Shown piece by piece: positions 5,825 through 31,600 of a stretch of 48,427 nt of DNA (within the stretch, counting starts at the first letter, position 1; every line of letters begins with the position of its first letter). The notes beneath the pieces were generated by a model. That model did not search any database, had not been told where the DNA came from, and saw only the letters and a program-made list of their open reading frames with translations. The DNA is taken from IMG/VR virus record IMGVR_UViG_3300046714_000246, positions 1 through 48,427 of that record. One strand, given 5' to 3'. The DNA comes from a virus. Both the position numbers and the translations under genes were made by a program.

Positions 5825-5833
5825 GCTGCCCCC

Positions 5834-7230: not shown

Positions 7231-7376
7231 ACCTCACCGAAGAACAAGTGCAGATGCTCAAGCGTGTCCTCGACGCCGCGATCTTCCACCAACGCGCCAG
7301 CGAACGTCTCGACAAGGATCTGCGCGACGCGATCCGCAACCTCGAGAAGGCGGTCGAGGCCCACGAGAGCAGCTGA
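7227..7376 (+). CDS. 49-residue helical protein
   Basis: A short gene starting in an ATGA overlap with the previous stop. The product begins MNLTEEQVQMLKRVLDAAIF and continues as one amphipathic helix rich in Leu, Arg and Asp, ending VEAHESS. It probably forms a coiled coil. Its support is the perfect stop-start overlap and clean frame; function is unknown. Confidence 0.5.
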   Translation: MNLTEEQVQMLKRVLDAAIFHQRASERLDKDLRDAIRNLEKAVEAHESS

Positions 7377-7443
7377 TGCCTGACCCAGGCGGCCGACCGC
7401 TCGTCAACTGCAGCCTTGCCGATGAAACTGGGCTGCACGATGG

Positions 7444-8749: not shown

Positions 8750-9015
8750 ACGAACCTCCCGAGACCGTGACCGATCAAGTCGAACGTGAGCGCAACGCCC
8801 GCAAGGGCGGTATGAAGATTTGGGTGCCGGGCATGAAGCTGCCCGAGCGCGTGAAGGAGCTGGCCGCGGTGTTCTTCGTCGAGGCCTGGAAGTCGACGCT
8901 TGCGCGCGGTCTCGACGTGATCACGTTCCGCGACAACGCGGAGAAGAACTACCAGGACTGCGTCGCGATGGCGCGCGTGCTGGTCGAGATCGACAACACC
9001 GAGGTGCCACGATGA
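8746..9015 (+). CDS. Hypothetical protein
   Basis: An 89-residue protein starting in an ATGA overlap and ending in an ATGA overlap with the next gene. It begins MNEPPETVTDQVERERNARKG and contains IWVPGMKLPERVKELAAVFF, a mixed charged-hydrophobic helical domain. No motif is recognised. Coupling on both sides argues it is real and co-produced with the neighbouring large protein. Confidence 0.6.
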   Translation: MNEPPETVTDQVERERNARKGGMKIWVPGMKLPERVKELAAVFFVEAWKSTLARGLDVITFRDNAEKNYQDCVAMARVLVEIDNTEVPR

Positions 9016-10892: not shown

Positions 10893-10897
10893 ACACT

Positions 10898-10974
10898 GTG
10901 GTTGTAGCTCAGCCCGGTAGAGCGTCGGAATGTGGCTCCGAAGGTCGCGAGTTCAACTCTCGTCAACCACCCCA
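10898..10974 (+). tRNA. tRNA-His (GTG anticodon)
   Basis: A full cloverleaf folds: acceptor GTGGTTG (10898-10904) with CAACCAC (10964-10970), D-arm GCTC...GAGC, anticodon stem TCGGA/TCCGA with loop ATGTGGC giving anticodon GTG at 10932-10934, variable loop, T-stem GCGAG/CTCGT with loop TTCAACT, discriminator C73 (10971) and encoded CCA (10972-10974). The base before the acceptor is T, so the G-1 typical of tRNA-His is not encoded although C73 is. It starts 5 nt after the stop of the large unknown gene and is probably processed from that transcript. Confidence 0.92.
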
Positions 10975-10980
10975 TCTCCC

Positions 10981-11391
10981 ATGAACCGTCGATCCTTCTT
11001 CCGCCGAATCGGCGGCGCCATGCTCGCCGCGGTGGCGCAGCATTACGCGCCGTCGGCGTTGGCGAAGAACCCCTCGCCGTCTCTCACTGGCACTAGCTAC
11101 CAGCAGACGCTGCAGGCGTTGCGGGAGCCGCTGCGCAGCGATCTGTTGCACGGCATCGAGAGGATGGACTACGGCGTGATGATCGTCTCGGACGGCGAGG
11201 GTCGCACGTGGCCGACCTATGTGACTCGATTCAAAGCTGGCCCGTTCGAAGCGTGGTCGCACGTTGACGTGACACTGGCTCAGTTGACCGGTGAGCCCTC
11301 GCGGTATCGCGCCGAGGAAGACAACATCATGCGCGAGCAGCTCATTCATCGTCTCACAGAGCGTCTCGAGCATGCCGAAGTTCGACCCTGA
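10981..11391 (+). CDS. Tat-signal protein with terminase-like segment
   Basis: A 136-residue protein. The N-terminus MNRRSFFRRIGGAMLAAVA followed by Gln-His-Tyr and ending APSALA-KN looks like a twin-arginine signal peptide: RRSFF consensus, a moderately hydrophobic core and an A-x-A cleavage site near residue 28. Right after it, GTSYQQTLQALREPLRSDLL closely matches GTGYMRTLQALPEPLRSQML in the large terminase encoded next door, and the two DNA segments are also similar. The remainder (about 55-136) is a soluble alpha/beta segment ending in a helix, not recognised. The ATG at 10981 is 6 nt after the tRNA; the 3' end overlaps terL by 20 nt. Function is unknown; an exported or decoy-like product is possible, but mis-called export signals also occur. 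Confidence 0.6.
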   Translation: MNRRSFFRRIGGAMLAAVAQHYAPSALAKNPSPSLTGTSYQQTLQALREPLRSDLLHGIERMDYGVMIVSDGEGRTWPTYVTRFKAGPFEAWSHVDVTLAQLTGEPSRYRAEEDNIMREQLIHRLTERLEHAEVRP

Positions 11392-12973
11392 GATTCTGAA
11401 GCACTTCACGATCGAGGAGCTGCTCGAAGCAAACTCCATCCTCGACGAAGACGCGCAACTCTGGCACCCGCTCGAGGGCCCGCAGACTGATGCGACTGAC
11501 TCGCATGCCGACATCACCGGCTTCGGGGGCGCAGGCGGCGGCGGCAAAAGCGACTGGATCCTCGGGCTCGCGTTGACGCGTCACCGACACTCGATCGTGT
11601 TCCGCGAGAACGGCACCGAGCTGGCCGGCCTGAACATCCGCCTGCGCGAGATCCTGCCGCCCGACAACTACAACGGCCGCGAACAGCGGTGGTCGTTCAC
11701 GCGTCCCGACGGCGTGCCGTGCGCGATCGAGCTGGGCTCGTTCCCTGACATCGGCGACGAGCAGAAGTATCGCGGCCGGCCTCACGATCTGCTCGCGTTC
11801 GACGAAGCGACGAACATGAGAGAGCAGCAGGTGCGCTTCTTGTTCGCGTGGGCGCGCACGGTGCAGCCCGAGCAGCGAGTGCGCATCGTGCTGACCTTCA
11901 ACCCGCCGTCGACAGTCGAGGGGCGATGGATCATCTCGTTCTTCGCTCCGTGGCTTGACGACCTGCACCCGAACCCGGCGTTGCCCGGCGAACTGCGGTG
12001 GTTCGCCACGATCGCCGGTATTGACATCGAGGTGCCAGACAACCGCGCCTTCGTGTTGTCGTCCGACAACGTGACACGGGTCTATGACTTCGACCCGGCG
12101 CAGCATCGGCTCGAGGACGTGATCAAGCCGCAGAGCCGCACCTTCATTCCGTCGCGCGTGACGGACAATCCGTTCCTCGCCGGCACCGGCTACATGCGCA
12201 CGCTGCAAGCACTGCCCGAGCCCTTGCGCTCGCAGATGCTGAAGGGCGACTTCAAGGCTGGCATGCGCGAGGACGCGTTCCAGGTGATCCCCACGGCCTG
12301 GGTCGATGCCGCGATGGCCCGCTGGAAGCCGCGTCCGAAGAAGCCGGTGATGGACAGTATGGGTGTTGACGTCGCGATGGGCGGCGCCGACGAGCACGTC
12401 ATCATGCGGCGGCACGCCAACTGGTTCGACGAGCCGATTGCGCACAAGGGATCCGAGATCCCTGACGGCGCGCAGAGCGGGTCGCAGGTCGTGGCCGCGT
12501 TGCGCGACAACGCGGTGATTCACGTCGACCTCCTCGGGCCCGGTGCGATGACCTACGGCTTCCTGATGCAGCTCCAGCTGCAAGCCATCGGCGTCAACTT
12601 CGGTGAGCTGGTGTCGGCAGCCACCGACCAGCATGGCCGGTTGCGCTTCACGAACCTGCGCTCCTACCTGTGGTGGAAGATGCGCGAAGCGCTCGATCCG
12701 TTGAACAACAACGCGATCGAGTTGCCGCCGCACAAGCGGCTGCGCGCGGATCTCTGCGCGCCGAAGTATTCGCTGCCGGGGCAAGCGATCAAGGTGCAGA
12801 GCAGAGACGACATCATCAAAGCGATCGGCCGCTCACCCGACTACGGCACTGCGGCGATCCTAGCCTTGATCGACACGCCAAAGGTCTCGTTGCTGCGCCA
12901 GATCGTCGGCGGGCACGAACGAATCGATCGCGGCTACGACCCCTACGCGATCCTCAACAGCCCGACCCCATAA
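11372..12973 (+). CDS. terL: Terminase large subunit
   Basis: A 533-residue packaging motor. The N-terminal ATPase domain has a glycine-rich Walker A GFGGAGGGGKS (K59, S60) and Walker B LLAFDEAT (D144, E145), then a coupling-type region FNPPSTVEGRW. The C-terminal RNase-H-like nuclease domain begins at GVDVAMGGADEH (D333), the first metal-binding acid, and continues with HVDLLGPG. The protein cuts and pumps concatemeric DNA into the prohead with the portal. The start at ATG 11372 (MPKFDPEILKHF) overlaps the previous gene by 20 nt; longer frames upstream are non-homologous in composition. It begins the packaging and head cluster. Confidence 0.95.
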   Translation: MPKFDPEILKHFTIEELLEANSILDEDAQLWHPLEGPQTDATDSHADITGFGGAGGGGKSDWILGLALTRHRHSIVFRENGTELAGLNIRLREILPPDNYNGREQRWSFTRPDGVPCAIELGSFPDIGDEQKYRGRPHDLLAFDEATNMREQQVRFLFAWARTVQPEQRVRIVLTFNPPSTVEGRWIISFFAPWLDDLHPNPALPGELRWFATIAGIDIEVPDNRAFVLSSDNVTRVYDFDPAQHRLEDVIKPQSRTFIPSRVTDNPFLAGTGYMRTLQALPEPLRSQMLKGDFKAGMREDAFQVIPTAWVDAAMARWKPRPKKPVMDSMGVDVAMGGADEHVIMRRHANWFDEPIAHKGSEIPDGAQSGSQVVAALRDNAVIHVDLLGPGAMTYGFLMQLQLQAIGVNFGELVSAATDQHGRLRFTNLRSYLWWKMREALDPLNNNAIELPPHKRLRADLCAPKYSLPGQAIKVQSRDDIIKAIGRSPDYGTAAILALIDTPKVSLLRQIVGGHERIDRGYDPYAILNSPTP

Positions 12974-13006
12974 GTCTCGAGGCGTCTGCTAGCGTTCTGC
13001 GGCGTG
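12964..13006 (+). promoter_or_regulatory. Repeated 43-nt promoter-like block before the GNAT gene
   Basis: GACCCCATAAGTC, an 11-nt variable spacer and GCTAGCGT plus 8 nt end exactly with the GTG start at 13004. The same 43-nt arrangement occurs at 16081-16123 with identical first 13 nt and identical GCTAGCGT. TAGCGT (12990-12995) is placed like a -10 element 8 nt from the start codon and the conserved 13-mer covers the -35 position. No Shine-Dalgarno is present, so a leaderless transcript is likely. The block overlaps the last codons of terL. Confidence 0.6.
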
Positions 13007-13483
13007 GCCAAGACGCTGAACGAGACTCACGCTGCTGCCGCGGAAGTGCGACACGTTCCGGTAGCGCAGTTGCTGACTCAGGGGCGCGAGTTGTTCAGGA
13101 TGCACTTCGACGAGGTGGGGAACTTCGGCGAGCCTCTGTTCATCAACGAGGGCATCTTCCTCGGTCTTGAGGAAGGCAACGTGCTGGTCACACTCGGCGC
13201 GTTCACGATGCAGCAACGGCTGATCGGCTACGCCACAGCGACGTGCACGCCGCAGCCGTTCGCCGACATCCTGGTCTGCAAGCCGCAAGCGATCTTCGTG
13301 CACCCCGGCTACCGCCGGTGCGGCAACGGAACGCGGCTGATGGCGTGCATGAAGCACGAGGCTGACGCGCGCGGCGCGCGAATGTTGTGGGGCGCGAAAC
13401 CGGGGAGCACTCTCGACCTCATCCTGCAGAAGGGTCGCTACGAAGTGCTCGAGACGATCTACACCGAACGGAGACCAGCATGA
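13004..13483 (+). CDS. GNAT-family N-acetyltransferase
   Basis: A 159-residue protein starting at GTG 13004 (MAKTLNETHAAAAEVR). The GNAT fold is shown by the beta4-beta5 region (LIGYATATCTPQPF) and motif A AIFVHPGYRRCGNGTRLM, whose R-R-x-G-N-G-T binds acetyl-CoA pyrophosphate. It transfers acetyl groups to an amine; the target is unknown. GNAT genes between terminase and portal genes are known in BPP-1- and T7-like podoviruses and may modify host or virion proteins. It has its own promoter-like block and ends in an ATGA overlap with the next gene. Confidence 0.82.
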   Translation: MAKTLNETHAAAAEVRHVPVAQLLTQGRELFRMHFDEVGNFGEPLFINEGIFLGLEEGNVLVTLGAFTMQQRLIGYATATCTPQPFADILVCKPQAIFVHPGYRRCGNGTRLMACMKHEADARGARMLWGAKPGSTLDLILQKGRYEVLETIYTERRPA

Positions 13484-13815
13484 TTCTTTCGATGCTCGCG
13501 ATAGGCGAAGGCCTGGGCACGGCGCTCTACATCGGAGGCACGTTGCTGGCGGCGGCGTCTGGCACCTACAGTGCCATCAACTCGACGGGTCAAGCTCGCA
13601 AGGGCCGCCAGATGCAACGCAGCGCGCAGCAGACTGCGATGAACGCAGCGTTGAAGAACGAGCAGAACACCGAGAACGATCTGATCAAGGCGAAGCAGAA
13701 GCAGAACCTCGACATCGCTTCGCTGCTCGCCGCGCAGCAGACCGGTGGCGGTCGTTCGGGCACGATGTTGACAGGGTCCGCCGGGGTGGCCAGCAATTCC
13801 CTACTCGGTGGATGA
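13480..13815 (+). CDS. Small internal/structural protein with N-terminal hydrophobic helix
   Basis: A 111-residue protein starting in an ATGA overlap (MILSMLAIGEGLGTALYIGG). Residues ~1-30 form a hydrophobic segment, followed by a Gln/Lys/Asn-rich helix (RSAQQTAMNAALKNEQNTEN) and a Gly/Ser-rich end with GTMLTGSAGV. This layout (membrane or core helix, coiled helix, T-L/M-L-T-G-x-x-G-V end) recurs in podovirus proteins encoded just before the portal. A minor virion or ejection role is likely but unproven. Confidence 0.6.
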   Translation: MILSMLAIGEGLGTALYIGGTLLAAASGTYSAINSTGQARKGRQMQRSAQQTAMNAALKNEQNTENDLIKAKQKQNLDIASLLAAQQTGGGRSGTMLTGSAGVASNSLLGG

Positions 13816-13818
13816 CGC

Positions 13819-15555
13819 ATGCCTGCCGTTCTCGAAGTCGCGCGAGCTGAGCAAGCGAGCTGGTTGTCCGAGCGCGAGATGTATGACTCGCGATGGCTGC
13901 AGCTCGACACCGAGTTCGGATCGTGGAAGACGCACTGGCAGGACCTGAGCACCTATATCCTGCCGCGCAACGGACGCTTCGTCGAACGTGAGGACCGAGG
14001 GGCGCGCGGCCAGAAGAAGCACAACAGCATCTACGACAACACGGGCACGCGATCGGTGCGTGTTGTCGGTTCGGGTCTCATGGCCGGCGCGACGAGCCCC
14101 GCTCGAGCGTGGGTGCGCATCGTCACCGGTGATCCGGTGCTCAACCGTCAGCAAGCGGTGAAACTCTGGCTCGACGAGGTCACGAAGCTCGTGTTGAAGG
14201 TGTTCGCGAAGGGCAACACCTACCGCGTGCTGCACACGATGTATGAGGAGCTGGCCGTGTTCGGCACGGCGGCCTGCATCGTGTTGCCTGACCCGGAAAA
14301 CGTGCTGCACTGCTACCCGCTCGCGCCCGGTGAGTATCGACTGGCCACGGACTACAAGGGCGCCGTCAACACCTGCTACCGCAGGTTCACGAAGACGGTT
14401 GCAGAGACGGTCCGCGAGTTCGGCTGGGAGAACTGCTCGAGTTCGGTGCAGCAGTTGTTCGACAAGGGCTTCCTGAGCAATGCGGTCCAAATCTGTCATG
14501 TCATCGAGCCGCGTGACGACCGTGACCCCGAGAAGGTCGACAACCTCAACATGCCGTGGAAGTCGATCTACTACGAGGTCGGCGTCAACGAGGGCAAGTG
14601 GCTCCGCGAGTCTGGCTTCGAGAACTTCCCGGTGCTGGCGCCACGTTGGGCCGCGGACTCATGCGAGACCTACGGCAGCAGTCCAGGCATGGAAGCGCTT
14701 GGCGACGTCAAGCAGCTGCAGCACGAGCAGCTCCGCAAGGCCGAGAATATCGACTTCAAGACAAAGCCGTCGATGCTGGCGCCGACCGAGGCGAAAGCCA
14801 ACGTGCTGAAGTGGACGCCCGGCGGTGTCAACTACGTCAACTCGCTCACGCCGAGCACGGGCGTGCGGCCGGCGTTCGAGTCAACCGTCGACCTCTCGCA
14901 TCTGCTCGAAGACATCCGCGACGTGCGAGACCGCATTCGCGCCTCGTTCTTCGCCGACCTGTTCTTGATGCTGTCGTTCGCGGGTGTCGACACTCGGATG
15001 ACGGCTCGCGAGGTCGCCGAACGACACGAGGAGAAGCTGATCCAGCTCGGGCCAGTGCTCGAGCGGTTGCACACCGAGCTGTTGGCGCCGTTGGTCAACC
15101 TCGCTTACCTGGAACTGGAGGCCGCCGGGCTGCTGCCGCCGGAACCCCCGGAGATCGGAACCTCGGGTCTCACCTTGGAGTTCATCTCGATGCTCGCGCA
15201 GGCGCAGCGCGCGGTCGGTGTCGCCGGTGTCGAGCGCATGCTGACGATCGCCGGCAGCGTGCAGCAGGTGAAGCCGGACATGATCGACAACCTCGACGAG
15301 GACGAGCTGTGGTCAGAACTCTCCGACATGATCGGAGTCACGCCGCGCATCAGTAGATCACCTGAGGCGCGCAACAAGCTGCGGCAGGCTAGGATCGCGG
15401 CGCAGAACGCAGCGGCGCAGTCACAGATGGCGCAGCAGAATTCGGAGACCGCGAAGAATCTTGCGGCGTCACCGACCGACCAGAACAACGCACTGCGGGA
15501 CGTGATGTCCCTGTTCAGCGGCTACAACCAGCCGCCAGCTCAGGCTTACAGCTGA
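13819..15555 (+). CDS. Portal (head-to-tail connector) protein
   Basis: A 578-residue T7-type connector. The N-terminus (EREMYDSRWLQLDTEFGSWK, followed by LSTYILPRNGRF) and the middle (RSVRVVGSGLMAGATSPARA, EELAVFGTAACIVLPDPEN, NMPWKSIYYEV) match the bacteriophage head-to-tail connecting family. The C-terminal ~130 residues contain the wing/crown helices and a Gln/Ala-rich tail (ARIAAQNAAAQSQMAQQNSE). Twelve copies form the ring through which terminase packages DNA and to which the tail adaptor binds. The ATG is 4 nt after the previous stop, with GGTGGATG as ribosome site. Length is normal for the family. Confidence 0.92.
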   Translation: MPAVLEVARAEQASWLSEREMYDSRWLQLDTEFGSWKTHWQDLSTYILPRNGRFVEREDRGARGQKKHNSIYDNTGTRSVRVVGSGLMAGATSPARAWVRIVTGDPVLNRQQAVKLWLDEVTKLVLKVFAKGNTYRVLHTMYEELAVFGTAACIVLPDPENVLHCYPLAPGEYRLATDYKGAVNTCYRRFTKTVAETVREFGWENCSSSVQQLFDKGFLSNAVQICHVIEPRDDRDPEKVDNLNMPWKSIYYEVGVNEGKWLRESGFENFPVLAPRWAADSCETYGSSPGMEALGDVKQLQHEQLRKAENIDFKTKPSMLAPTEAKANVLKWTPGGVNYVNSLTPSTGVRPAFESTVDLSHLLEDIRDVRDRIRASFFADLFLMLSFAGVDTRMTAREVAERHEEKLIQLGPVLERLHTELLAPLVNLAYLELEAAGLLPPEPPEIGTSGLTLEFISMLAQAQRAVGVAGVERMLTIAGSVQQVKPDMIDNLDEDELWSELSDMIGVTPRISRSPEARNKLRQARIAAQNAAAQSQMAQQNSETAKNLAASPTDQNNALRDVMSLFSGYNQPPAQAYS

Positions 15556-17137: not shown

Positions 17138-18154
17138 ATGGCTGCTCTTCCGAACACCCGACTGACGCTCGCCGATCTGGCGAAATACATGGACCCGGCT
17201 GGCAAGGTCCAACCTGTCACCGAGCTGCTCCTGCAGCGCAACGACATCCTGTTCGATCCGATGTGGATGCCCGGCAACCTGCCGACGGGCCACCAGTTCT
17301 CGGTGCGCACCGCGCTGCCGGCCGCGTCACTCCGCGACTACAACGAAGGCGTGCTGCCGAGCAAGTCGGCCGTCGCGCAACAGACCGAGGGCATGTCGAT
17401 CATCGAGGCATGGTCCGAGGTCGACGCCGCGGAAGCGAACCTCAACGGCAACGCGGCCGAGTTCCGCGCCGGTGAAGACGCCGCGTTCATCCAGACGCTC
17501 GAGCAGACGCTCACGCAGCTGATGATCTACGGCAACACCAAGACGAGCAGCAAAGAGTTCAACGGCATCGCGACGCGTATCGCGGCTCTCGCTAATCCGC
17601 AGTTCGTCACAGCCAACACCGGCTTCACCGGCGGCGGTGCGGTCTACACCTCGATCTACCTCGCAGAGTGGGGTGACGAGTTGTTCATGACCTACCCGCG
17701 TGGCACGGAAGCAGGCCTGCACAACACCGACCTCGGTCGGCAGATCATCCAGTTCACCGACGGCAAGCGCATGTTGGCGCTGGTCAGTCAATACGTCTGG
17801 AACTGCGGCATGGTCGCGCGCGACTATCGCCGTCTCGTGCGTGTCGGCAACATCAAGGTCGCCGACGTGCGCACGCGCACGAACTCGCAGGCACTGACCG
17901 CAGACACGAACATCATCTACAAGATGACGGACGCGCTCTATCGGCTGCCGCACGGCAACGGTCGCAGGGTGTTCTACATGAACCGCACCTGCCACGCCGC
18001 GCTCGCCAAGATCGCGCTCGACAAGAGCCAGAACGTCGTCACGATCGAGCAAGGGCTCACGCAGTTCGGCATGCCGCACAGCTGGCTGTCGTTCCTCGGC
18101 AACCCCATCCGTCCTGTCGACAAGATCCTCAACACGGAAGCGGAGGTGGTGTGA
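17138..18154 (+). CDS. Major capsid protein (GP7/Bbp17-like)
   Basis: A 338-residue protein with an HK97-like head-protein pattern of the BPP-1 type: N-arm NTRLTLADLAKYMDPAGKVQ, the segment LLQRNDILFDPMWMPGN, TGHQFSVRTALPAASLRDYN, and a C-terminal P-domain end with FGMPHSWLSFLGNPIRPVD. The region GEDAAFIQTLEQTLTQLMIY is the spine helix. It has no cleavable scaffold domain, in agreement with the separate scaffold gene. GAGGAC lies before the ATG. It forms the icosahedral shell, and the downstream Bbp16-like proteins are the expected cement. Confidence 0.9.
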   Translation: MAALPNTRLTLADLAKYMDPAGKVQPVTELLLQRNDILFDPMWMPGNLPTGHQFSVRTALPAASLRDYNEGVLPSKSAVAQQTEGMSIIEAWSEVDAAEANLNGNAAEFRAGEDAAFIQTLEQTLTQLMIYGNTKTSSKEFNGIATRIAALANPQFVTANTGFTGGGAVYTSIYLAEWGDELFMTYPRGTEAGLHNTDLGRQIIQFTDGKRMLALVSQYVWNCGMVARDYRRLVRVGNIKVADVRTRTNSQALTADTNIIYKMTDALYRLPHGNGRRVFYMNRTCHAALAKIALDKSQNVVTIEQGLTQFGMPHSWLSFLGNPIRPVDKILNTEAEVV

Positions 18155-19161
18155 TGCTAGGAGACGTCAACAACAAGGTCTCGGTCGCGCAGGCAATCAC
18201 CGGCACTGCGTTCTCGACCAGCAGCATCGACCGGCTCGCGCGCCAGGACATGGGCGCGGGCCGCAGCATCGCGATGTGCTTCCGCACGACGCAGTCGGTG
18301 CTCCCTGCGGCGATTGGCACGCCGCCGGCCGGCATCACGGTGACCATGACCGATACCGGCGACCTCGTGAACTTGACCGCGCACGGTCTGAGGCCGGGCA
18401 ACATGGTCACGTTCATCTCTCTCGGGGCCACGACCGGTCTCACCATCGGCCGCATCTACTACGTCAACACGGTGCCGACGGCCAACTCGTTCACTGTTTC
18501 TGCCACGCTCAATGGTGTTGGTGGAACGCCAGTCGCGCTGACCACGGACAGCGGCGCGGGCGCGGCGATGATTGCTTTGCCGACCGTCGAGTTCCAGGTC
18601 GTCGCAGGTGACGTGGAAACGCTCGACGCCGACGCCGGCTCGGGTGCCGATGTGGCGCTCGCCGACGTGCTTGTGCTCGGCAGTTCGGGCCCGCTGGCGT
18701 ATCGCGGCCCGCGCACGGTGGAGGTTTTCACCAACGGCACCGACACGATCACGTCGACCAACCACAACCTCGCGACGGGCATGCCTGTCGTGTTCGCTGT
18801 GCAGGGCGCCGGTGTCATGCCGACGAACCTCTTGGTGGCGACGACCTACTTTGCGATCAAGGTCGACCTCGACAACTTCAAGGTGGCGACCTCGCGCGCG
18901 AACGCGGATGCAGGCATCGCGGTCGACTTCACGACGAACGGCACGTTGCCGATCGCGTGGAGCGTCGCTGACGGTCAGCTGACACTCGGTGGCCCGATGG
19001 TTCACGTCGAGTTCAACCCGCAGGAGTCGATCGGCCGTCGGTTCATCGGAGCGCGCTACGTCGTGCAGGGGCTTCTTCAGACCGGCGCGTTCGACGCGCA
19101 AATCGAACTCGAGGCCTCGCAAGAGCCGAAGCTCTACCTGAGTGGCTTCGCCACCCCGTGA
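18154..19161 (+). CDS. Bbp16-like capsid cement protein enlarged by two inserted beta modules
   Basis: A 335-residue protein. The two ends match the Bbp16-like cement fold: N-terminus SVAQAITGTAFSTSSIDRLA, then FQVVAGDVETLDADAGSGAD, and C-terminus NPQESIGRRFIGARYVVQGL ending in IELEASQEP. Known relatives are about 130-150 residues. The excess is two inserted modules, around 72-135 (LTAHGLRPGNMVTFISLGAT ... YYVNTVPTANSFTVSATL) and around 198-262 (HNLATGMPVVFAVQGAGVMP ... YFAIKVDLDNFKVA). The same module recurs in the tail adaptor fusion. The modules resemble FCCH-like beta domains seen in phage virion proteins and probably decorate the head surface. GGAGG 7 nt before ATG 18154 decides the start; GTG 18151 is the alternative. 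Confidence 0.75.
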   Translation: MLGDVNNKVSVAQAITGTAFSTSSIDRLARQDMGAGRSIAMCFRTTQSVLPAAIGTPPAGITVTMTDTGDLVNLTAHGLRPGNMVTFISLGATTGLTIGRIYYVNTVPTANSFTVSATLNGVGGTPVALTTDSGAGAAMIALPTVEFQVVAGDVETLDADAGSGADVALADVLVLGSSGPLAYRGPRTVEVFTNGTDTITSTNHNLATGMPVVFAVQGAGVMPTNLLVATTYFAIKVDLDNFKVATSRANADAGIAVDFTTNGTLPIAWSVADGQLTLGGPMVHVEFNPQESIGRRFIGARYVVQGLLQTGAFDAQIELEASQEPKLYLSGFATP

Positions 19162-19977: not shown

Positions 19978-22860
19978 ATGGCCGACGTTGATGTCATCCT
20001 CGTAGTCGGCTCCAGCAATTTCGCGGGGTTCCTTGCGCTGCTCGACGATGTCCCGACCCTCGACCTGACTCGGTGGCTCGGCAGCGGCAGCTCGCACCCG
20101 CCGATCCCTTCGGTCAGCTCGCAACGCCCCTACGAGGCCCGCATCCCTGGGGGCCGCATTTGGGCCGCGCGGAGGCCTTTCAGCAACAACGTCTCGCGCG
20201 CCATCGCTGCGAACACGACTCTGACAGCCGGATACCTCAATTCCGGCGCGATGTCCGCGTCGGCCAAGAAAGACAGCTGGGTCTACGTTCGCACCAACAG
20301 CACAGGGCAGGGCAACTTCCGCAAGCTCGACACTGCGGCAGCGACCAACATCCTGGCGACGGTGACGACTCCTTGGAGTCCCTCGCTCTCGCCTGACGGC
20401 ACGATCCACTTCCTGCTCGACAGTCACACGACCGAGACGCACACGGTTGGTCAGTTCGACTCGAGTTCCGGCATCACGGGCAACACCATCACGGTCACCG
20501 CGCACGGGTTGAAAAGCGGAGACCAGATCACGATCACGGGCACGGTGGGCGCTACCGGGCTCGCGCTCAACACCACCTACTACATCATCAACCCGACCGT
20601 TGACACGTTCCAGGTGTCGCGCAGCCCTGGTGGCACAGTGGTCACGTTGACTTCTGGCGGCGCGCAGACGCTCACTGTGCTCACGAACTCGACCAGCACG
20701 GTCCTGTTCAAGACCAGCGCCACGGACGCCATCACTTCAGCGGTCACCGCGAACGGCGGGCGGCACGTGCTGGTCCTGGGCGCGATACAAGCGTTCACTG
20801 CGACGGCGAAGTTCGACGCGACGTTCCCGAACACCGTCATCCGTGCGGCGGCGCACGGCTTGGCCGCCAACACCAGACTCCACGTCGTCAGCACTGCTAC
20901 GCTGCCCGGCGGCCTCGTGGCCGACACCGACTACTACGTGCGCACTGCGCACAGCTTCGCGGTGACTGTCGGTAACACGCTGGACGCAGTCGCGCACGGA
21001 TTCGTCAACGGGGCCAGGGTCCGGGCCAGCGGTGTCTCGGGACTCACCGCGGGGATCGACTACTTCATCATCAACGCCACAGCGAACACCTTCCAAGTGT
21101 CACTGACGTTAGCTGGGTCCGCGGTGGTGTTCTCTCCTGTCGCCGGCACTTTCACGTTCACGACGCTCGACGACTTCAAGCTGACAACGACAGCGGGTGG
21201 GACCACGCTGATCTCGTTTGCTGACGCCGGCACCGGCACGCATTCATTCCAGACCTACGACGACACAGTCCGCAAGGTGACTGCGTTCACGGCCACGTCG
21301 ATCACGCTGGACGTTGCGCTCACGCCCCCGCCCCCAGGCAGTTGCTTCTGCATCCTTTCTGGCGCCAATTCGTGTGAGTCGTTGGCGACGATGCAGTCGC
21401 CCAACGCGGTGCTGCAGGATCTCACCTTCTACCTCGACCAGAACGCGCCGGTGTATCTCACCGGGCTCGATTACTACATCCCTGACAGCACGCCGTTCCA
21501 GAGTCCGCGTGTAGCCTACGCAGCGGGGCCGACGGTCAACCTCATGCCCGAGCTGCAGTATCACCTGCGCTCGCGACTGGCGAATCTCGTGATCGTGCCG
21601 ATGACTGTTTCGGCTTCGATGATCTCGCCGTTCTTGAACGGGCAGGTGTTCGGGCCCGCGCCTGTGGTCCCTTTCGGGGGGTTCACCAGCTGGTTCCATG
21701 ACATCCTCAGTCTGGACTTCCATCCGTCGAGCCCGAGTTCGCTCTACACGGCTCTCACGAATGCGATCACGTCGGCCACCGCGCTCATCGTCGCGGAAGG
21801 CAACAAGCCTCGCTTCCGCGGGCTGATCCTGAACCTGTTCGATAACGACCCGACCGCGGACGCACAGAGGGCCGCGCGGCTCGGTTCCAACGCTGTGTTG
21901 TTCCGTGACGCGTTGCGGGTGTTCGTCGGCGAACCATCGATGCCGTGTGCGCTCAGCGGACCGAGCACCTATGCCGGCACCGAAGATCAGCGTGAGCTGG
22001 TCTACGACACTCTGTGGCAGGTCGCGGCCAGTGACCCGGCTGGCACGACGAGCGTCACCGACACGCGCAGCAACACGAACAAGGCGATCGACGGGCTGCA
22101 CTACAACGCGCTCGGGCAGATCCTTCTCGCGCAGCAGAACTTCGCGACCTGGGATCCGATCTACTCTGCGCTGGTCGATGACACCGCGGCAGCCAACAGC
22201 ATGGGTGTCGAGATCAGCAACATCGCGCTCAGCTACATCGGTGAGACGGCGAAGGTGTTCTCGCTCGACGTGACGGTCGACCAGTCAACCCAGGCTCGCG
22301 TCTGCGCGCAATTCTATCCCGAAGCATTCAAGCACACTCGAGAAGCGCACAGCTGGGCCTTCGCCACGACCGTCAAGGCCCTGGAAGCGGTGGTGAAGGA
22401 CGACCTGCGCACCGACTGGGCCTTCGCTTACCTGCCGCCGCCTGACATGGACACGCCGATTCGAGTCGTGTCGCCAGGAGCGACGACGACCAGTGGCGAA
22501 GTGCCGCCTTGGTGGCGATTCCCGAACGCCGAGAACGTGACCTTGATGAAGGTCGACGATCCTGATTACGAGATCGAGGTCGACAGCTCAGGTCGGCGTG
22601 TCCTCTACACGAACGTCGAGGCCGCGCTGCTGAAATACAACAAGCGCATGAGCAGCAAGACGCTCGTGCCGCACAGCTTCAAGCTCGCCGTGGCGCGCAG
22701 GCTCGCCGCGTTCATCTCGGGCCCGACCCGCAAGGACATCGCGCTCACGGAGAAGCTCGAGGCAATGGCGCGCATCGAGACCGGTGACGCTGCCGCGATC
22801 GACGCGAACCGCCAGCAGAAGGGGCCGCCGCCCGACAGGATGCCCTGGAATCGAGGTTAG
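19978..22860 (+). CDS. Fusion: SGNH esterase-like domain with inserted beta modules plus T7-gp11-like tail adaptor
   Basis: A 960-residue protein with three kinds of domain. SGNH/sialate-O-acetylesterase-like halves: block I VVGSSNFAG (residues 9-17, S13 the likely nucleophile) and block V DGLHYNALGQ (D705, H708). Between them lie at least three copies of a beta module: about 168-232 (TAHGLKSGDQITITG...YYIINPTVDTFQVS), 285-325 (AAHGLAANTRLHV...DYYVR) and 332-395 (VAHGFVNGARVRA...DYFIINATANTFQVS). The C-terminal ~220 residues from M742 (VEISNIALSYIGETAKVFSL, CAQFYPEAFKHTREAHSW) are a tail tubular protein A/adaptor domain linking portal and nozzle. Normally the adaptor is a separate ~200-residue protein. 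No stop separates the parts; an internal start at ATG 22201 is possible but lacks a clear Shine-Dalgarno. An enzyme on the tail ring could deacetylate surface glycans during adsorption. Confidence 0.78.
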   Translation: MADVDVILVVGSSNFAGFLALLDDVPTLDLTRWLGSGSSHPPIPSVSSQRPYEARIPGGRIWAARRPFSNNVSRAIAANTTLTAGYLNSGAMSASAKKDSWVYVRTNSTGQGNFRKLDTAAATNILATVTTPWSPSLSPDGTIHFLLDSHTTETHTVGQFDSSSGITGNTITVTAHGLKSGDQITITGTVGATGLALNTTYYIINPTVDTFQVSRSPGGTVVTLTSGGAQTLTVLTNSTSTVLFKTSATDAITSAVTANGGRHVLVLGAIQAFTATAKFDATFPNTVIRAAAHGLAANTRLHVVSTATLPGGLVADTDYYVRTAHSFAVTVGNTLDAVAHGFVNGARVRASGVSGLTAGIDYFIINATANTFQVSLTLAGSAVVFSPVAGTFTFTTLDDFKLTTTAGGTTLISFADAGTGTHSFQTYDDTVRKVTAFTATSITLDVALTPPPPGSCFCILSGANSCESLATMQSPNAVLQDLTFYLDQNAPVYLTGLDYYIPDSTPFQSPRVAYAAGPTVNLMPELQYHLRSRLANLVIVPMTVSASMISPFLNGQVFGPAPVVPFGGFTSWFHDILSLDFHPSSPSSLYTALTNAITSATALIVAEGNKPRFRGLILNLFDNDPTADAQRAARLGSNAVLFRDALRVFVGEPSMPCALSGPSTYAGTEDQRELVYDTLWQVAASDPAGTTSVTDTRSNTNKAIDGLHYNALGQILLAQQNFATWDPIYSALVDDTAAANSMGVEISNIALSYIGETAKVFSLDVTVDQSTQARVCAQFYPEAFKHTREAHSWAFATTVKALEAVVKDDLRTDWAFAYLPPPDMDTPIRVVSPGATTTSGEVPPWWRFPNAENVTLMKVDDPDYEIEVDSSGRRVLYTNVEAALLKYNKRMSSKTLVPHSFKLAVARRLAAFISGPTRKDIALTEKLEAMARIETGDAAAIDANRQQKGPPPDRMPWNRG

Positions 22861-22863
22861 CGC

Positions 22864-25362
22864 ATGAAGTCCTACTTGCGCTCCTTTGCCGGCGGCGAGG
22901 TGACGCCGGAGCTGTTCGGCCGCATCGACGACATCAGGTTCCAGACGGGCCTCGCGCTCGCCAAGAACTTCGTCACGTTGCCACACGGGCCGGCGAAGAA
23001 CCGGCCGGGCTCGATGCAGATCATCGTGTCTGGCACGACGGGTAGCCCGACTGCGCCACCGCGATTGATCGCTTTCAAGTTCTCGTCGAACCAGGAAGTC
23101 GCGATCGAGATGGGTTCGCAGTATTTTCGGTTCTTCGTGAACAAGGCGCCGGTGATGCACCCGACCGGTGGCGGCGCCCCGAACTGGAGCAACGGCACTG
23201 ACTACACTGTCGGGCAGTTCGTCACCTACGTGCCGGACGGCCGTATCTACCAAGCGCTGCAGGCGAGCGGGCCGAGCGGCGTCGGCGCGAAGCAGCCGGA
23301 CACCAACCCTCTTTTCTGGCACAAGCAGCCACTCTCCGGGCAATACGAAGTCGAGCACCCGTTCACTGGCGCGCAGTTGCCCTTTGTGCGCTATTGGCAG
23401 TCTAACGACATCATCACGCTGGCGCATCGCGACGTGCCGACGCGCGAGCTGAGACGTTATGGCGCTACGGACTGGCGCGTCGTGATCGTGGCGCCGACGC
23501 CGACGTTACCCACACCGGGGTCCCAGGTTGCCGCGCTCGGGTCCGCCGGCATGACGACGATCACTGACGCGACAGTCGCCGCAGGAACCACGCTGCGGCT
23601 GCGAGTGATCGGTCCCGTGACTTGGATCAACGGAGAATCGATCTACGGATCGGTGGTCTTCGTCACGCCGAACTTCACGCTGGGGCCGCGGTTCTTCCGC
23701 GCGGTGAATCCGAGTGGCAGCACTTTTGACCTTCTCGAAGTCGACGGCACGAATCCGACGGGCTGGGGGGCGAGCACGTTTTCGAGCGGCTCGTTCCAGG
23801 CCGTGCCGTCCTCGTCCGAACGTATCAACAACTACCGCGTCACCGCGGTGGACGCTGACGGCAACGAGTCACAACCGCCGATTCCGGCGACTGCGACGCG
23901 CGACAACAACCTCAACGCTGAGGGGGCCTACAACACGATCACCTGGACCGCGGTCACGGGCGCAGTGCGATATCGTGTTTACAAGAAGTTGTCTGGAGCC
24001 TACGGATTGATCGGAGTCACTGAAGGTCTGACCTTCAAAGACGACAACATCACACCCGAAATCGACAAGGGGCACTCGATCCTCGACACCACACTGACGG
24101 TGTCGCCTTATCCCGAGGCGGGCTGCTACCACGAGCAGCGCAGGGTCTTCGCCGTCGACCAGCTGTTGCGCATGACGCGATCTGGCACCGAGATCGACAT
24201 GAGCTACCACATCCCGGTGCTCGACGACGATCGCATCAGTTTCCCGATCGCGTCCAACGAGTTCAGCCCGATCCAGCACTGCGTCTCGATGAACGAGTTG
24301 ATCTTGCTGACGAGCGCGGTCGAGTATGTGGTCAACTCGCCTGATGCCGCGGTGTTGACACCGTCATCGATCGCGCTGCGACCGGCGAGCTTTGTGGGCA
24401 GCAGCCACGTCAGGCCGGTGCTCGTCAACAACACCTTGCTCTTCTGCGCTGCGCGCGGCGGACACCTGCGGGATCTCACTTACCGTGTGACCGCGCAGGG
24501 CTACGTGCCCGGAGACCTCTCGCTGCGAGCCGCGCACTTGTTCGACAATCTCACGATCGTCGATCTCACGTTCGCGAAGGCACCTTACCCGATCGCGTGG
24601 GCAGTCAGCAGCAACGGCAAACTCCTGGGGCTCACGGACGTGCCCGACCAGGAAGTGCTCGGTTGGCACCAGCACACGCTCGGTGACAGCGACGCGATCG
24701 TCGAGTCATGTCTTGCGGTCACTGAAGGCAACGAAGACACGCTCTATCTCATCGTGCGGCGCACGGTCAACGGATCCTCGGTGCGCTACATCGAAGCGTT
24801 GACCCCGTTCGCGTTCGGCGCGGCGGCCGACTGGTTCTTCGTCGACTGCGGCAAGACAGTCACCGGGTCGTTCACTGCCGGCGTGCAGATCGGTGGCTTC
24901 TCACATCTGATCGGCAAGACGGTGTCCATTCTCGCCAACGGCATCGTGTTGCCGCAGCAAGTTGTCAACAGCTCTGGCGAGATCAAGAACACGCTCGGTG
25001 CCATCATCACGAAGGTCACCGCGGGCCTGCCGATCGACGCGCAGCTGCAGACCTTGCCGATCGCACTACAGATTGACGGCTTCGCGCAGGCGCAGCCGAA
25101 GGCTGTCAGCAACGTCTATGTTCGAGTCGCGAACTCGGCTCCTTTCCGTCTTGGCCCTGCACTCACTGATATGGCTCCATCTGACGCTGCAGCTGCTTCG
25201 ATTCGTGGCTTGCTCGCCGTGGAGACTCTGCGCACGGAACGCGTCCCGGTGCTATCGCCGCCTGCGTGGTCGGCGGACGGGCAAGTCTTCATCAAGCACA
25301 CGACACCATTGCCGCTGACCGTCGTCGGTGTCACACTGGAGGTCGTCCTCGGCGGCGACTGA
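22864..25362 (+). CDS. Tail nozzle (T7 gp12-like tail tubular protein B) with carbohydrate-binding-like insert
   Basis: An 832-residue nozzle. The N-terminus SYLRSFAGGEVTPELFGRID, then ALAKNFVTLPHGPAKNRPG, is diagnostic of the family. Residues ~107-154 (NWSNGTDYTVGQFVTYVPDG ... DTNPLFW) look like a CBM5/12-type chitin/carbohydrate-binding domain. Around 240-300 there is a probable copy of the beta module (FFRAVNPSGSTFDLLEVDGT), and 320-400 holds a fibronectin-III-like segment (INNYRVTAVDADGNESQPP, RYRVYKKLSG). The rest is the propeller-like nozzle body (VLDDDRISFPIASNEFSPIQ). It forms the distal tail tube under the adaptor. The inserts point to glycan contact at the tip. Confidence 0.86.
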   Translation: MKSYLRSFAGGEVTPELFGRIDDIRFQTGLALAKNFVTLPHGPAKNRPGSMQIIVSGTTGSPTAPPRLIAFKFSSNQEVAIEMGSQYFRFFVNKAPVMHPTGGGAPNWSNGTDYTVGQFVTYVPDGRIYQALQASGPSGVGAKQPDTNPLFWHKQPLSGQYEVEHPFTGAQLPFVRYWQSNDIITLAHRDVPTRELRRYGATDWRVVIVAPTPTLPTPGSQVAALGSAGMTTITDATVAAGTTLRLRVIGPVTWINGESIYGSVVFVTPNFTLGPRFFRAVNPSGSTFDLLEVDGTNPTGWGASTFSSGSFQAVPSSSERINNYRVTAVDADGNESQPPIPATATRDNNLNAEGAYNTITWTAVTGAVRYRVYKKLSGAYGLIGVTEGLTFKDDNITPEIDKGHSILDTTLTVSPYPEAGCYHEQRRVFAVDQLLRMTRSGTEIDMSYHIPVLDDDRISFPIASNEFSPIQHCVSMNELILLTSAVEYVVNSPDAAVLTPSSIALRPASFVGSSHVRPVLVNNTLLFCAARGGHLRDLTYRVTAQGYVPGDLSLRAAHLFDNLTIVDLTFAKAPYPIAWAVSSNGKLLGLTDVPDQEVLGWHQHTLGDSDAIVESCLAVTEGNEDTLYLIVRRTVNGSSVRYIEALTPFAFGAAADWFFVDCGKTVTGSFTAGVQIGGFSHLIGKTVSILANGIVLPQQVVNSSGEIKNTLGAIITKVTAGLPIDAQLQTLPIALQIDGFAQAQPKAVSNVYVRVANSAPFRLGPALTDMAPSDAAAASIRGLLAVETLRTERVPVLSPPAWSADGQVFIKHTTPLPLTVVGVTLEVVLGGD

Positions 25363-26153: not shown

Positions 26154-28660
26154 AAACTCCGACCACGTTCACGATCGGCCGCCGGCCGGCGAGCCGACCC
26201 GGCTACGAAGCGACGAGCGTCGTTCCGCAGGAGAACGCCGTGCCGGCCACGGTGGCACGGGCCGGCAGAGCGATCGAAGAGGCTGGCAGCGAAGCGCAGC
26301 GCACCGAAGAGATCCTGACAGGGCGCGTCGATCTGGCTCGAGCCCAGGAAGCCGACGCCAAGATTGCGGACGGCTACCGCACGCTGATGTTCTCGCCCGA
26401 GGGCTACACCAACCGGATTGGCCGCGAGGCCGTCGACAAGCGGCAGGAGATCATCACCGCGCTCGACGACCACCGGCGCCAAATCCTCGACCCGCTGACC
26501 CCGAGGCAACGCAAGCTGATCGCAGCCTCTGACGAGACGCGTTACCAGCACGTGCGCAGTCAGGTCGACGGGCACTACATGCAGCAAATCTCGGCCTACG
26601 AGATGGCCGAGACCGAGGCGCGAGCCAACTCGCTGATGCTCGACGCGAGCAACGGCTACTTCGCGGCCACCGCGCCGGTGATGCCGCAAGAGCAAGGGCA
26701 GCAGTCGCAGCAGTCGTCGGTGGACGCCAGCTACGCGGAGGGCGTCGCGCGCGGTGAGATCACGCCCCAGGGGCCGGACAAGGGCCCGCCTTCCGCGTTC
26801 ACCGACAACCGGAAAGCGATGCAGTCCGAGTTGCAGCGGCTCGCAGCGCAGAAAGGTCTCGGGCCTGACGCAGTCAAAGCACTGCTGCAGCACGCTGACA
26901 ACAACCTCTATGGGTCGATCATCACTCGTTTGGTGGGCTCGAATCGCGCGCTCGAAGCGGCTGATCTGTTGCGCGAGAGCCCGGATGTCACGCTGTCGCA
27001 AGAGACACGCGCACGCCTGCAACGCGATGTTCAGGAAGCTGGTGTCGCTGAACAGGGCTTCCACATCGCGCGCGTGCTAGGACAGTCGGGTCGTGACCTC
27101 GGCGAGCAGCTCGACGCTCTTGCGCAGCTGCACGAGAAGGGCAGCATCAGTCTGCTGGCGCACGACGCGGCCGAGAAGCGCATCCTCGCCAACGACAAAG
27201 TGCAGCACGAGGCCCTCGGCCGGGCCGGTGAGAAAGCTCTCACCGACGCGCAGACGTGGCAGTCGCTGAACCCGACGGTTGCCTTGCCGGAGAGTGAGCG
27301 CAGCAAGCTGCGCGCCACCGGCAAGGAAGCGGCCTTCGATCTGTGGACACTGCAGGGCAAGCAGTTCGTGACGACGGATCAGGCTCGTCTCGAAGAGCAG
27401 ACGATGGACGACAAGATGCTCGCGAATCGCTTCGAGAGCCACGTGGAGCTGGCGCAGTCGTTCGCGCATCGCATGAGCCCCGAGGACTTCGGCAAGCTGA
27501 CACTGCGATGGCGCAAGGCACGCGGTGAAGCACTCGATCCGAAAGACGCGTTGGCTCTAGAGCACGATGTCGCCGAGAAGAACTTCCTGCAGGCATCGTT
27601 GTTCTACGACAACTTCAAGTCGACGCCGGGGAGCGGTGGCATGGCGCGCGACTCGATCAGCTCGCGCGAGAGCCGCTTTCACGAAGCAGTAGTGCTGCGT
27701 GTCAATCAGTTGGCCGCGGAAGGCAAGACGCTGAAGAACAACCTCTACAAGCTCGCGATCGAGGATGTCTGGAAGAACGGCGCGGTGGTCGACGACAAGT
27801 GGCTGCCCACCGTGATGATGACGAAGGAAGAGGTTGAGCGGGCGAAGAGTGAGGTCACGGCCGCGACTCGCAAGGCCTACAGTCTGGAGTTCCAGATGTC
27901 GGGCCAGCAGATGCCATCGCAGGCCTACCTTGTCACCGGGGAACGAGTCAATCTGGCGTCGACCAAGGAGGACGACCGGGTGTTCACGTTCGACGAGTTG
28001 TCCGACAAGATGAAAGCGGATCGGCATGGAGTCGACCCCACCTACCCCGAGGTCTCCGCAGAGTTCGCGCGTCTCGAACGTGATCGTCTGCAGCGCACGA
28101 AGGACGCGAAGGAGATCGCTTCGGTGCTCAACAAGACTCGAGCGGCGACACTGATGCAGCAGCTGCCCGCCGAGTTCGACCGCGAGTTCAACCGTCAATA
28201 CGGGCAGATGCTCGCCACTCGTGCCGCAGAAATGAAGACAGTGCGCGGGGGCTACCAAGCAGATCGCGGTGTCTACGGACGGATACCGTCAACAGGCGAG
28301 ATCGAGCGCGAGCGCGTAGAGACGAGCAAGACGCCGTCACGAGACCGCGGCTTTGCCTCACCGGCCCGCCCCGGTGAGCTGACGCAGATTCAGTCCGTCT
28401 ACCAAGACGCAGTTCGAACCGTGCTCAGTCAACACCGCAAAGAGATCACCGGCTACGGCCTGCGCGATGCTGACATCGTTCAGGGCGTCATCCCTGACAC
28501 GCGGTTGCCGGGTAACGCTCCGGTCCGATTCGGTCTCACCCCAGGCGGTGCAAACCCACTCGGCACGAAGCCGGATCTCAGCTTCACGCAAGCTGAGCAG
28601 GAGTTCCTGACTGACATGCGGAAGCGCTACAAGAAGACCGAGTTCGTGGAGTCGAAGTGA
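26150..28660 (+). CDS. Internal virion/ejection protein (T7 gp15-like position)
   Basis: An 836-residue, almost entirely helical protein rich in Gln, Glu, Arg and Ala. It begins MKTPTTFTIGRRPASRPGYE. Recurrent TPR- or helical-repeat-like stretches include QSELQRLAAQKGLGPDAVKA, LVGSNRALEAADLLRESPDV and LGEQLDALAQLHEKGSISLL. There is no signal peptide, membrane span or enzyme motif. Position between a short and a giant ejection protein is that of T7 gp15, which builds the periplasmic tube for DNA entry. It overlaps both neighbours by 4 nt. Confidence 0.7.
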   Translation: MKTPTTFTIGRRPASRPGYEATSVVPQENAVPATVARAGRAIEEAGSEAQRTEEILTGRVDLARAQEADAKIADGYRTLMFSPEGYTNRIGREAVDKRQEIITALDDHRRQILDPLTPRQRKLIAASDETRYQHVRSQVDGHYMQQISAYEMAETEARANSLMLDASNGYFAATAPVMPQEQGQQSQQSSVDASYAEGVARGEITPQGPDKGPPSAFTDNRKAMQSELQRLAAQKGLGPDAVKALLQHADNNLYGSIITRLVGSNRALEAADLLRESPDVTLSQETRARLQRDVQEAGVAEQGFHIARVLGQSGRDLGEQLDALAQLHEKGSISLLAHDAAEKRILANDKVQHEALGRAGEKALTDAQTWQSLNPTVALPESERSKLRATGKEAAFDLWTLQGKQFVTTDQARLEEQTMDDKMLANRFESHVELAQSFAHRMSPEDFGKLTLRWRKARGEALDPKDALALEHDVAEKNFLQASLFYDNFKSTPGSGGMARDSISSRESRFHEAVVLRVNQLAAEGKTLKNNLYKLAIEDVWKNGAVVDDKWLPTVMMTKEEVERAKSEVTAATRKAYSLEFQMSGQQMPSQAYLVTGERVNLASTKEDDRVFTFDELSDKMKADRHGVDPTYPEVSAEFARLERDRLQRTKDAKEIASVLNKTRAATLMQQLPAEFDREFNRQYGQMLATRAAEMKTVRGGYQADRGVYGRIPSTGEIERERVETSKTPSRDRGFASPARPGELTQIQSVYQDAVRTVLSQHRKEITGYGLRDADIVQGVIPDTRLPGNAPVRFGLTPGGANPLGTKPDLSFTQAEQEFLTDMRKRYKKTEFVESK

Positions 28661-31600
28661 TGCCCGACTACGAAGAGCCGCTGCCGCAGGATCAGATGAT
28701 GGAGCCCGAGCTGCAGGAGCCGAAGCCGGCGCCTGAGCCGGCGCCCTATCAGGAACCCGAGCCACCGGAGAAACGCGCCGGACGACTCGATGGGATCATC
28801 GCGCTCCACCGGCAGCAGGACGCGGCAACGCTGCGAGACGTGTTTCGCGCTGTCGCCGACGTGGACCCGGCGCAAGCGGCCAACCTGGACGCTGCCGCGA
28901 AAGCACTCGGTGTCGATCCACGCACGTTGCCCGCGGATCCTGACGTAGTGAAGCGTTTGCTGCGCGAGCAGCGGCTGAAGGAGCTGAACTTCGAGCAGTT
29001 CACGCCTGCGCTCACTGCGCACCTGAAGGAGATCCCGAACGCTCGCCTGTGGCACGACGACCTGGGCAACCTGCAGGAAACCCAAGGACACTTCGACTGG
29101 TTCTGGAAGGGCACCGAAGCCGGGCAGGTGACGAACGAGGAAGGCTTCTTGTTCGCCAAGCGTGCGTGGGCGCGTATGCACAACACGAAGCTCACGCCAC
29201 AGGAAGAGGATCGCATCACCGAGATCCAAGACATCACCAGGATGTCGGACCTCCAGGCGACTGGCCTGCTCGACGCGTTCGCGAAAACACTCGGCCAGCT
29301 CGTCGAGCCCGCGTTGGCGTCAGTCGCCGCGGGCGCCGCGCTCGCGTATCCCACGCTGGCCGGCGGGCCGATCAGCGGTGGAGTTGCGTTCACCACTGGT
29401 GCCCTGTCTGCAGCATTCGCTTACTCCGCGGTGGTCGAGTTCGGTCACCAATACGAGGAGACTTACAACAAGTTGACTGCGGCAGGTGTGCCCGCGGATC
29501 AAGCGCACGAGGCTGCGCTGGAGACCGGCATCGGCTACGCAATCGCCGCCGGCTTCGTTGAAGTCGGAGGCACGGCTGTGCTCGGCAAGCCGTTCGTCAG
29601 CGCTACCAAGATTGCTCTCGGTCTGACGAAGCCGACGATCGCTGGCGCCTGGAAACGCCTCGCCAAGGAAACCGTGTCCGGTTTGCTTGTTGAGCCCTGG
29701 GAAGAAGGGGTGCAGCAGTTCGAGTCGGCCATCGCGGAGAACCTCGCAGCCAAGCAGACCGGGACCGACATCGGGCCAACCCTCAGTCAGGCCGTCTCTG
29801 AGGCGGGTCAAGCCGCGTGGGCTGCTGCGAAAGGCATGATCCTCATCGCGCCGCTCGGCCCGGCGTTACACTTCACCGCGGACCTGAACCGAGCGCATCA
29901 GGCTCGAGCCGCGGTGGAGCTGGCTGACCGTGTTGCCGAATCGATGTCGAAGTCCGAGGTGCTGAAGCGCAACCCGGACGCCGTGGCTGCCGCGGTGCAA
30001 GCGGCTGCCGGCCCCACCGACGCCTATTACATCGAGGGGCCGAAGCTCGCGCAGGGTCTCGTGAAGTCAGGCCAGACGCGTGAGCAGCTGGGGCGTGACC
30101 TTCCTGACGTTCTCCGTCAGCTCACGATCGCAGAGAAGACTGGCGACGATGTCATGATCCCGATGGGCGACTTCGCGGCGAAGATCGCACCGACGGATCT
30201 GTTCCCTGCGATTCGCGAGTCGATCCGCCTGAAGAACGGCTGGAGTCTCGATCGTGCTGACGAGTGGTTCGCAGAAAGGGACGCGAACGCGAAGGCAACG
30301 CAGCAGATGGTCGCCGAAGCATCGGCCAAGGTGGTGGACTGGGACAAGCAGGCTCTCGCAGTGCAGGACCGCTTTCGTGTCGAGCTGCGCAACGACCCGC
30401 GGTTGACCACCGAACAGGTCGGCTACTACTCGCTGCTCTACCGCCAGAACGTCGAGATCATGGCCGCGCGCGAGGGCAAGACGCCGGCCGAGTGGGACGC
30501 GAAGAACGGATTGAAGGTGCGACTCGGGGCGCCGACCGGTGAAACACTGCCGCAGTTCGCCGGCATGCAGTCGAAGACGGCGAACCTGTTCGACTTCAGC
30601 AAGGCACAGCAGATGCTCGCCGAAGGCAAGGACGCAGAGACCATTCGAAACAAGACTGGCTGGTTCAAGGGCGCTGACGGTGAGTGGCGATACGAGATCA
30701 GTGATCGTGACGCGAAGTGGATCGGTCCTACAGACACCGCGTCCACCGTGGCCGCGTTCGCCAAGAAGCGTGGGGTCTCGACTCGCGAAGCGATGCGCCG
30801 GTTCTCGCCGCGGGAGCTGACGACGTTGACAGTTGGCGACGTGCTCGAGCACCCGACGCTGTTCGAAGCCTACCCTTCGCTGCGCGACATGCCGGTGATG
30901 TTGTTCCGTTCGTCCAGCTCGACGATGGGGTTCACGAGCAACATCGGCATCGGTGTCAACCTGAACGCTTCGGAGTCGCCTGACGACATCCTGTTGCACG
31001 AACTGCAGCACGTCATCCAAGAGGTCGAGGGCTTCGCGCTCGGCGGCAACACTAATCAGTTCACCGCTGCGGACCTAGAGAAGATCAAGCAGGCCGACTT
31101 CGAGCGCGTCCTCACCGAGATCAAGAAGACGGACCCGGCGGCGGTCGATGACTTCGAGCGCTACATGGAAGTGCGCAAGCGATGGTCAGACCTTCAGGCG
31201 CAAGACGGAGCTTCGGAGGAAGCCACTGCCGCAGCTGCCAAGGAAGCCACGCAGTTGTTCAACGGAATGTCGCCTAACGTGCAGCGTCTGGTGCTGGCGA
31301 AGATTTCGACCCTCCGTCCGTTCGCGGCCTACGAGCGGCTGGCCGGTGAAGTCGAGGCGCGCAACACCGTGTTGCGGCGCAAACTCACCTACAAGCAACG
31401 CGAGTCGAAGAAGCAGTCGCCTTTCACGACAGCTGACACTCCGCTGGAGAAGTTGTTGATCCAGTTCGAGCGCCCGAAGCGCGAGGTCGATCCGGGCACG
31501 TTCCGTCAGACGCGCACCGAAGACGAAGAGTGGGCCGACTACGAGCCGCTTCGCACCAAAGAAGGCAAGATCCGCGGCGCGCCAGAGTGGGTGAAGACCG

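Follow-up and report, generated by a model that had tools for sequence, protein, structure and literature searches.

The gene at positions 19978 to 22860 of the window, by which we mean the complete 48,427-nucleotide stretch of the viral record IMGVR_UViG_3300046714_000246, raises the question of whether a phage tail adaptor can carry an esterase-like module of the SGNH kind within its own chain, and what such a protein would do in the virion.

A single open frame spans both regions

The gene (19978..22860, + strand) is a single open frame with an ATG start, which encodes 960 aa and is free of stops across the junction between the two regions. Its GC3 is even, with 0.79-0.91 in each 80-codon block, and continues unbroken at the junction, and tandem DNA repeats were not found within 19978-22860. 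The same architecture is encoded by three further loci, L003 (876 aa), L006 (990 aa) and L086 (854 aa), of which the L003 fusion was recovered again, from another sample, as L008, while L004 holds the N-terminal part only. The adaptor had initially been described as joined to the upstream region without a stop, which these observations bear out. As the window is one metagenomic record, a misassembly or a missed stop merging two genes was considered and rejected, because independent contigs from other samples share the junction, with SGNH-adaptor regions 28-48% identical to that of L086, leaving an artefact with a negligible probability.

Met742 (22201..22203, + strand) had been proposed as the beginning of the adaptor and as a possible internal start. 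The first proposal was accurate, with adaptor homology beginning at residue 744, two residues past Met742. The ATG at the junction and the fact that standalone adaptors begin at exactly that point would agree with a separated chain, in which translation begins internally at 22201, or a protease cuts near residue 742, to give a normal adaptor of ~24 kDa and an SGNH part that is free or located elsewhere. We consider such a separation improbable, as no Shine-Dalgarno-like site was found upstream of Met742 and none of the three relatives (L003, L006, L086) has a Met at the equivalent position, although the start at 19978 and the starts of the relatives likewise have no Shine-Dalgarno-like site, so that its absence at Met742 alone is a weak argument. 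Furthermore, a dispensable upstream domain would hardly keep one frame in four lineages. Translation from 22201 only, the alternative named in the initial annotation, is unlikely on the same grounds, and one translated chain is the simplest reading, with cleavage after assembly being possible.

The C-terminal part is an adaptor in a BPP-1-like virion module

The T7 gp11-like adaptor domain comprises residues 744-960 (22207..22857, + strand). It was assigned by phrog_394 (tail protein), which matches residues 744-953 (E 7e-27, profile positions 5-181 of 190), by the connector protein of phage Carin1 (PDB 8ck1_E, E 2.5e-7) and by tblastn, with which the homologues of residues 744-960 in public phages are proteins such as Bbp14 of BPP-1. 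The fused gene ends at 22860, directly before the nozzle gene of the virion module (22864..25362, + strand, 832 aa; phrog_376, E 1e-151), and is preceded by a major capsid protein of the GP7 family (17138..18154, + strand; Pfam GP7, 1.2e-87) and a Bbp16-like protein. This order is that of BPP-1 (Rauchvirus), where capsid protein, cement protein, small gene, adaptor and nozzle follow one another. The sequence places the window, as a fragment, among the BPP-1/Rauchvirus-like podophages.

Additional features were observed in the same region. The Bbp16-like capsid protein (18151-19161) carries FCCH-like repeats of the tail-fibre type that are related to those of the adaptor fusion, the nozzle protein has a CBM5/12-like stretch at residues 107-135 (CBM_5_12, E 4.4e-4, below the cut-off), and a 2963-aa protein with LPD22 and LPD23 domains (28657-37548) occupies the position of Bbp10 in BPP-1. 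No tail fibre was recognised in the window, an observation of little weight given that many fibres escape PHROGs, that part of the ORFs was scanned, and that a 626-residue frame upstream of the terminase (9012-10889) could possibly encode a fibre or an enzyme. This frame has no match in Pfam, phage records or PDB, and the longer ORF over it (8820-10892) has none in PHROGs.

The N-terminal region resembles a split SGNH module

Residues 1-742 appear to contain an SGNH module in two pieces (~1-70 and ~500-735), split by ~400 residues rich in FCCH repeats of the tail-fibre type. The first piece (19978..20187, + strand), assigned by motif and position, includes block I, GSSN, at residues 11-14 with the presumed nucleophile Ser13 (20014-20016, + strand). 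The second piece (21475..22182, + strand), assigned by a profile of the relatives' cores and by hhalign, includes block V, DGLHYN, with Asp705 (22090-22092) and His708 (22099-22101; + strand). GSSN and DGLH (705-708) each occur once within residues 1-742, and in shuffles of these residues (n = 20,000) GxSN within the first 29 together with DxxH within 686-725 was obtained in 0.045%, with windows that were picked post hoc. While Ser13, Asp705 and His708, i.e., the Ser of block I and the Asp-x-x-His of block V, are retained in the window copy, its block III is degenerate, reading FDND at residues 621-624 vs. QGE in relatives.

The part between the two pieces includes an insertion with FCCH-like repeats of the phage tail-fibre kind (residues ~166-428; 20473..21261, + strand), which matches phrog_7765 (2e-14), phrog_4711 (1.2e-11) and phrog_9370 (tail fiber protein, 3.6e-10), with Pfam E1_FCCH at 1.6e-4, below the cut-off. 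Of the ~740-residue SGNH region with blocks I and V that had been described initially, the motifs thus stand, but not the single block, which is interrupted by this insertion. The initial annotation had overlooked the insertion as well as the adaptor terminus as a recurrent fusion point in this and neighboring clades.

In the window protein itself, SGNH was not detected by Pfam, PHROG and PDB searches. Pfam SASA (PF03629) gave no match up to E 10, and neither phmmer with the SGNH half nor a profile of three cores returned anything meaningful from PDB sequences. Block I was aligned to the GQSN/GQSV of P0003, P0004, P0005 and L086 by motif and position only, and in a full-length automatic alignment with standalone adaptors it stood out of register with the relatives. 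The second piece reached 20.8 bits against the profile of the three cores, compared to 4.8 bits for the top shuffle (n = 2000), and hhalign gave an E of 5.6e-5 at a probability of 66%, suggesting that it is likely homologous to these cores, yet divergent. As single-sequence AlphaFold2 gave an uninformative model of the window protein (pLDDT 32), its SGNH fold leans on a relative, L086, with which it shares about 22% identity in the second piece.

Relatives carry the same fusion with more complete motifs

Using the major capsid protein as query, with more loci added by later searches, we looked for homologues with the same fusion and found it in the three further lineages named above. Block I is GQSN in the fused relatives and GQSV in L006, block III is QGEAE in L003, QGQAD in L006 and QGEAD in L086, and block V is EEIH, DPLH and DLIH, respectively. 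The motifs of L086 (GQSN, WMQGEAD, DLIH) are canonical, and its second SGNH piece alone passes Pfam SASA with 25.5 bits vs. a cut-off of 24.8 (E 1.2e-5); the whole protein (22.3 bits) and the six-frame search stay under this cut-off, and L006 (P0004) matches SASA weakly (E 0.016). Among the 40 records behind the loci, many of which are fragments, only L086 and L006 matched PF03629, both under the cut-off, and in the remaining records PF03629 pointed to no separate SASA gene. The SGNH family assignment is secured via the relatives, because L003, L006 and L086 carry the motifs, and L086 passes SASA and has a model with corresponding matches. Together with the adaptor matches, this supports the initial proposal of a T7 gp11-like adaptor and an SGNH-fold module in one frame.

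The variation of these motifs also bears on whether the SGNH domain of the window might be catalytically dead within the same fusion and serve glycan binding or structure only. Such a loss would agree with FDND instead of QGE, with the divergent core and its large fibre-type insertion, and with an active site that drifts in the family, where L003 has Glu for the block V Asp and L006 has GQSV and QGQ. We hold it for possible though rather doubtful, considering that the window copy retains Ser, Asp and His and that L086 is canonical throughout.

Predicted structure of a relative

L086 was modeled with AlphaFold2 from a 29-row alignment that included the window protein. The model has a mean pLDDT of 60, with mostly high confidence in the adaptor part and largely low confidence in the insertion, and around the motifs its strands and helices alternate in the order of an SGNH fold, at mixed confidence (block values from about 41 up to 91 across the second SGNH piece). 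In a Foldseek search with this model, phage adaptors ranked first (8ck1_E, E 1.3e-13), T7 gp11 and KP32 TTPA were within the top twenty, and the acetylxylan esterase 1zmb was found with an E of 0.0099. VIA-align, used as a second look at the Foldseek matches, aligned the adaptor part with 8ck1_E (Z 21.1) and T7 gp11 (Z 13.4), and the SGNH part with 2apj (Z 15.5), 7kmm (Z 14.9), 1zmb (Z 14.7), the Pan3 tailspike 9vyh (Z 14.4), SIAE (Z 13.8) and NanS (Z 13.4), the first to last aligned L086 residue of the SGNH matches lying between about 4 and 624. In predicted fold and in motif order, L086 agrees with carbohydrate acetylesterases of the SASA (PF03629) and other SGNH types (2apj, 1zmb, XAC1771, SIAE, NanS), which differ in being cellular and adaptor-free. 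The window copy also differs from them by its missing QGE. In addition, two viral proteins of BFVD align with the L086 model over 578 and 625 columns (E about 1e-32), and to judge by the model the SGNH-adaptor architecture may be present among deposited viral proteins.

Adaptor fusions in neighboring phages

A tree of 51 adaptor domains has one starred clade with ten members, in which the four SGNH fusions are intermixed with standalone adaptors, among them Bbp14 of BPP-1, which is homologous to the adaptor domain of the window, but has 223 aa and no N-terminal module. A second starred clade carries a different N-terminal extension of ~900 residues, which in five tree proteins is followed by two tandem adaptor domains in one chain each (L024:12323-16369, L028:11979-16055, L037:4224-8381, L045:3399-7883 and L073:11927-16015); six such chains could make a twelve-fold ring. 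The SGNH motif set is absent from the ~900-residue extension of L074, L024 and others, and a PDB profile search with this extension yielded only a weak match to an S-layer protein (E 0.023). As the extensions of these separate clades are unrelated, N-terminal fusion to the adaptor arose at least two times.

Enzyme-like or spike genes were also found next to the adaptor. In L094, a 676-aa relative of galactose oxidase (5404-7434; E 9e-10 to PDB 8tx6) is encoded by a gene that lies 8 bases ahead of that for an adaptor with an N-terminal extension of ~120 residues, and in L012, L053 and L060 the slot directly upstream of the adaptor is occupied by separate genes that resemble beta-helix spikes by eye. 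L095 has ORFs of the same sizes and order as L094, and L006 additionally encodes a 1517-aa nozzle protein (9933-14486) with a ~700-residue insertion that has a weak FCCH match. An integrase is present in the record of L086.

These neighbors, together with the fibre-type repeats, argue against an N-terminal module that decorates the capsid side or the lumen and never reaches the cell surface. Such an internal place has been speculated by the authors for the esterase P2_42 of phage Peru-2, which they put in the internal core (PMC13320782). For the window protein we regard it as highly improbable, since the lumen would hardly fit twelve modules of ~740 residues. We tentatively suggest that the adaptor ring of BPP-1-like and neighboring podophages may serve generally as a platform on which receptor-binding or receptor-modifying modules are mounted, and may replace dedicated tail fibres. 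Its N-terminus would have acquired unrelated modules (SGNH esterase-like and the ~900-residue extension) on at least two occasions, with a duplicated adaptor in one clade by which six chains would give a twelve-fold ring with six modules.

Searches beyond these loci returned little. The SGNH half of the window protein had no match by tblastn in 50,697 phage records and that of L086 one weak partial match (E 0.06), and bacterial genomes scanned with A5 gave two adaptor-domain matches only and no fusion. The fusion was likewise absent from the public phage records searched. Among isolated phages, Vibrio phage VP2 has an adaptor with a large extension (CDS 9329-11554, AAR97631; adaptor at residues 5-188 of 741), however this extension lies on the C-terminal side, is Ig-like and rich in Gly, and contains no recognised enzyme. 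Among the titles and abstracts listed by literature searches on tail tubular proteins with SGNH or acetylesterase, none describes such a fusion.

Discussion

On balance, we favor the view that an SGNH-fold module with a fibre-type insertion is fused to the adaptor ring in one virion protein, which likely binds and, triad permitting, deacetylates host glycans. By homology, the C-terminal ~217 residues would make up the adaptor ring that connects the portal to the nozzle, presumably in twelve copies as in T7, with the N-terminal ~740 residues as a module that would face outward. From the sequence and the predicted structure of the relative, this module would be a domain with the SGNH fold, akin to carbohydrate O-acetylesterases of the SASA type and interrupted by a beta-rich insertion of the fibre type. 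It might bind host surface glycans and deacetylate them where the triad is intact, and the adaptor ring would in this way assume some of the tasks that otherwise fall to a separate esterase tailspike. For the window copy, enzymatic activity is uncertain because QGE is replaced by FDND; hydrolysis may be possible with Ser13, Asp705 and His708 kept, but without QGE it may be weakened, or the module may be purely binding.

An action on acetylated host glycans is suggested by analogy with known systems. Esterase activity on podophage tails was reported for the Schitoviridae Moo19 and B2 and for phage G7C (PMC11654681); in these phages and in Pan3 (9vyh) the enzyme is a separate tailspike, whereas the SGNH module of the window lies inside the adaptor chain. 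Enzymatic activity is reported for the adaptors of KP32, KP34 and phiYeO3-12 (PMC5440376, PMC5741709, PMC7060351), and the tail tubular proteins of phage OWB are reported to bind the receptor (PMC7241545). In Klebsiella phage KP32 this adaptor is tail tubular protein A (PDB 5mu4); it and the phiYeO3-12 protein are T7 gp11-like as well, however of ~192 aa, and their reported activity (PMC5440376, PMC7060351) is ascribed to the adaptor fold itself and not to a fused enzyme domain. The initial assessment of the adaptor as an unusual place for a glycan-modifying enzyme is fair, although these reports are precedents.

Adaptors are usually regarded as small conserved joints, and here the joint itself bears an esterase-type module. 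For genome annotation this means that a 'tail protein' match can conceal a host-range module. Short-tailed phages of this kind usually carry their host-surface tool on separate tail fibres, whereas here the ring itself may do so, which would represent a second route for short-tailed phages to display surface tools, with number and position fixed by the ring.
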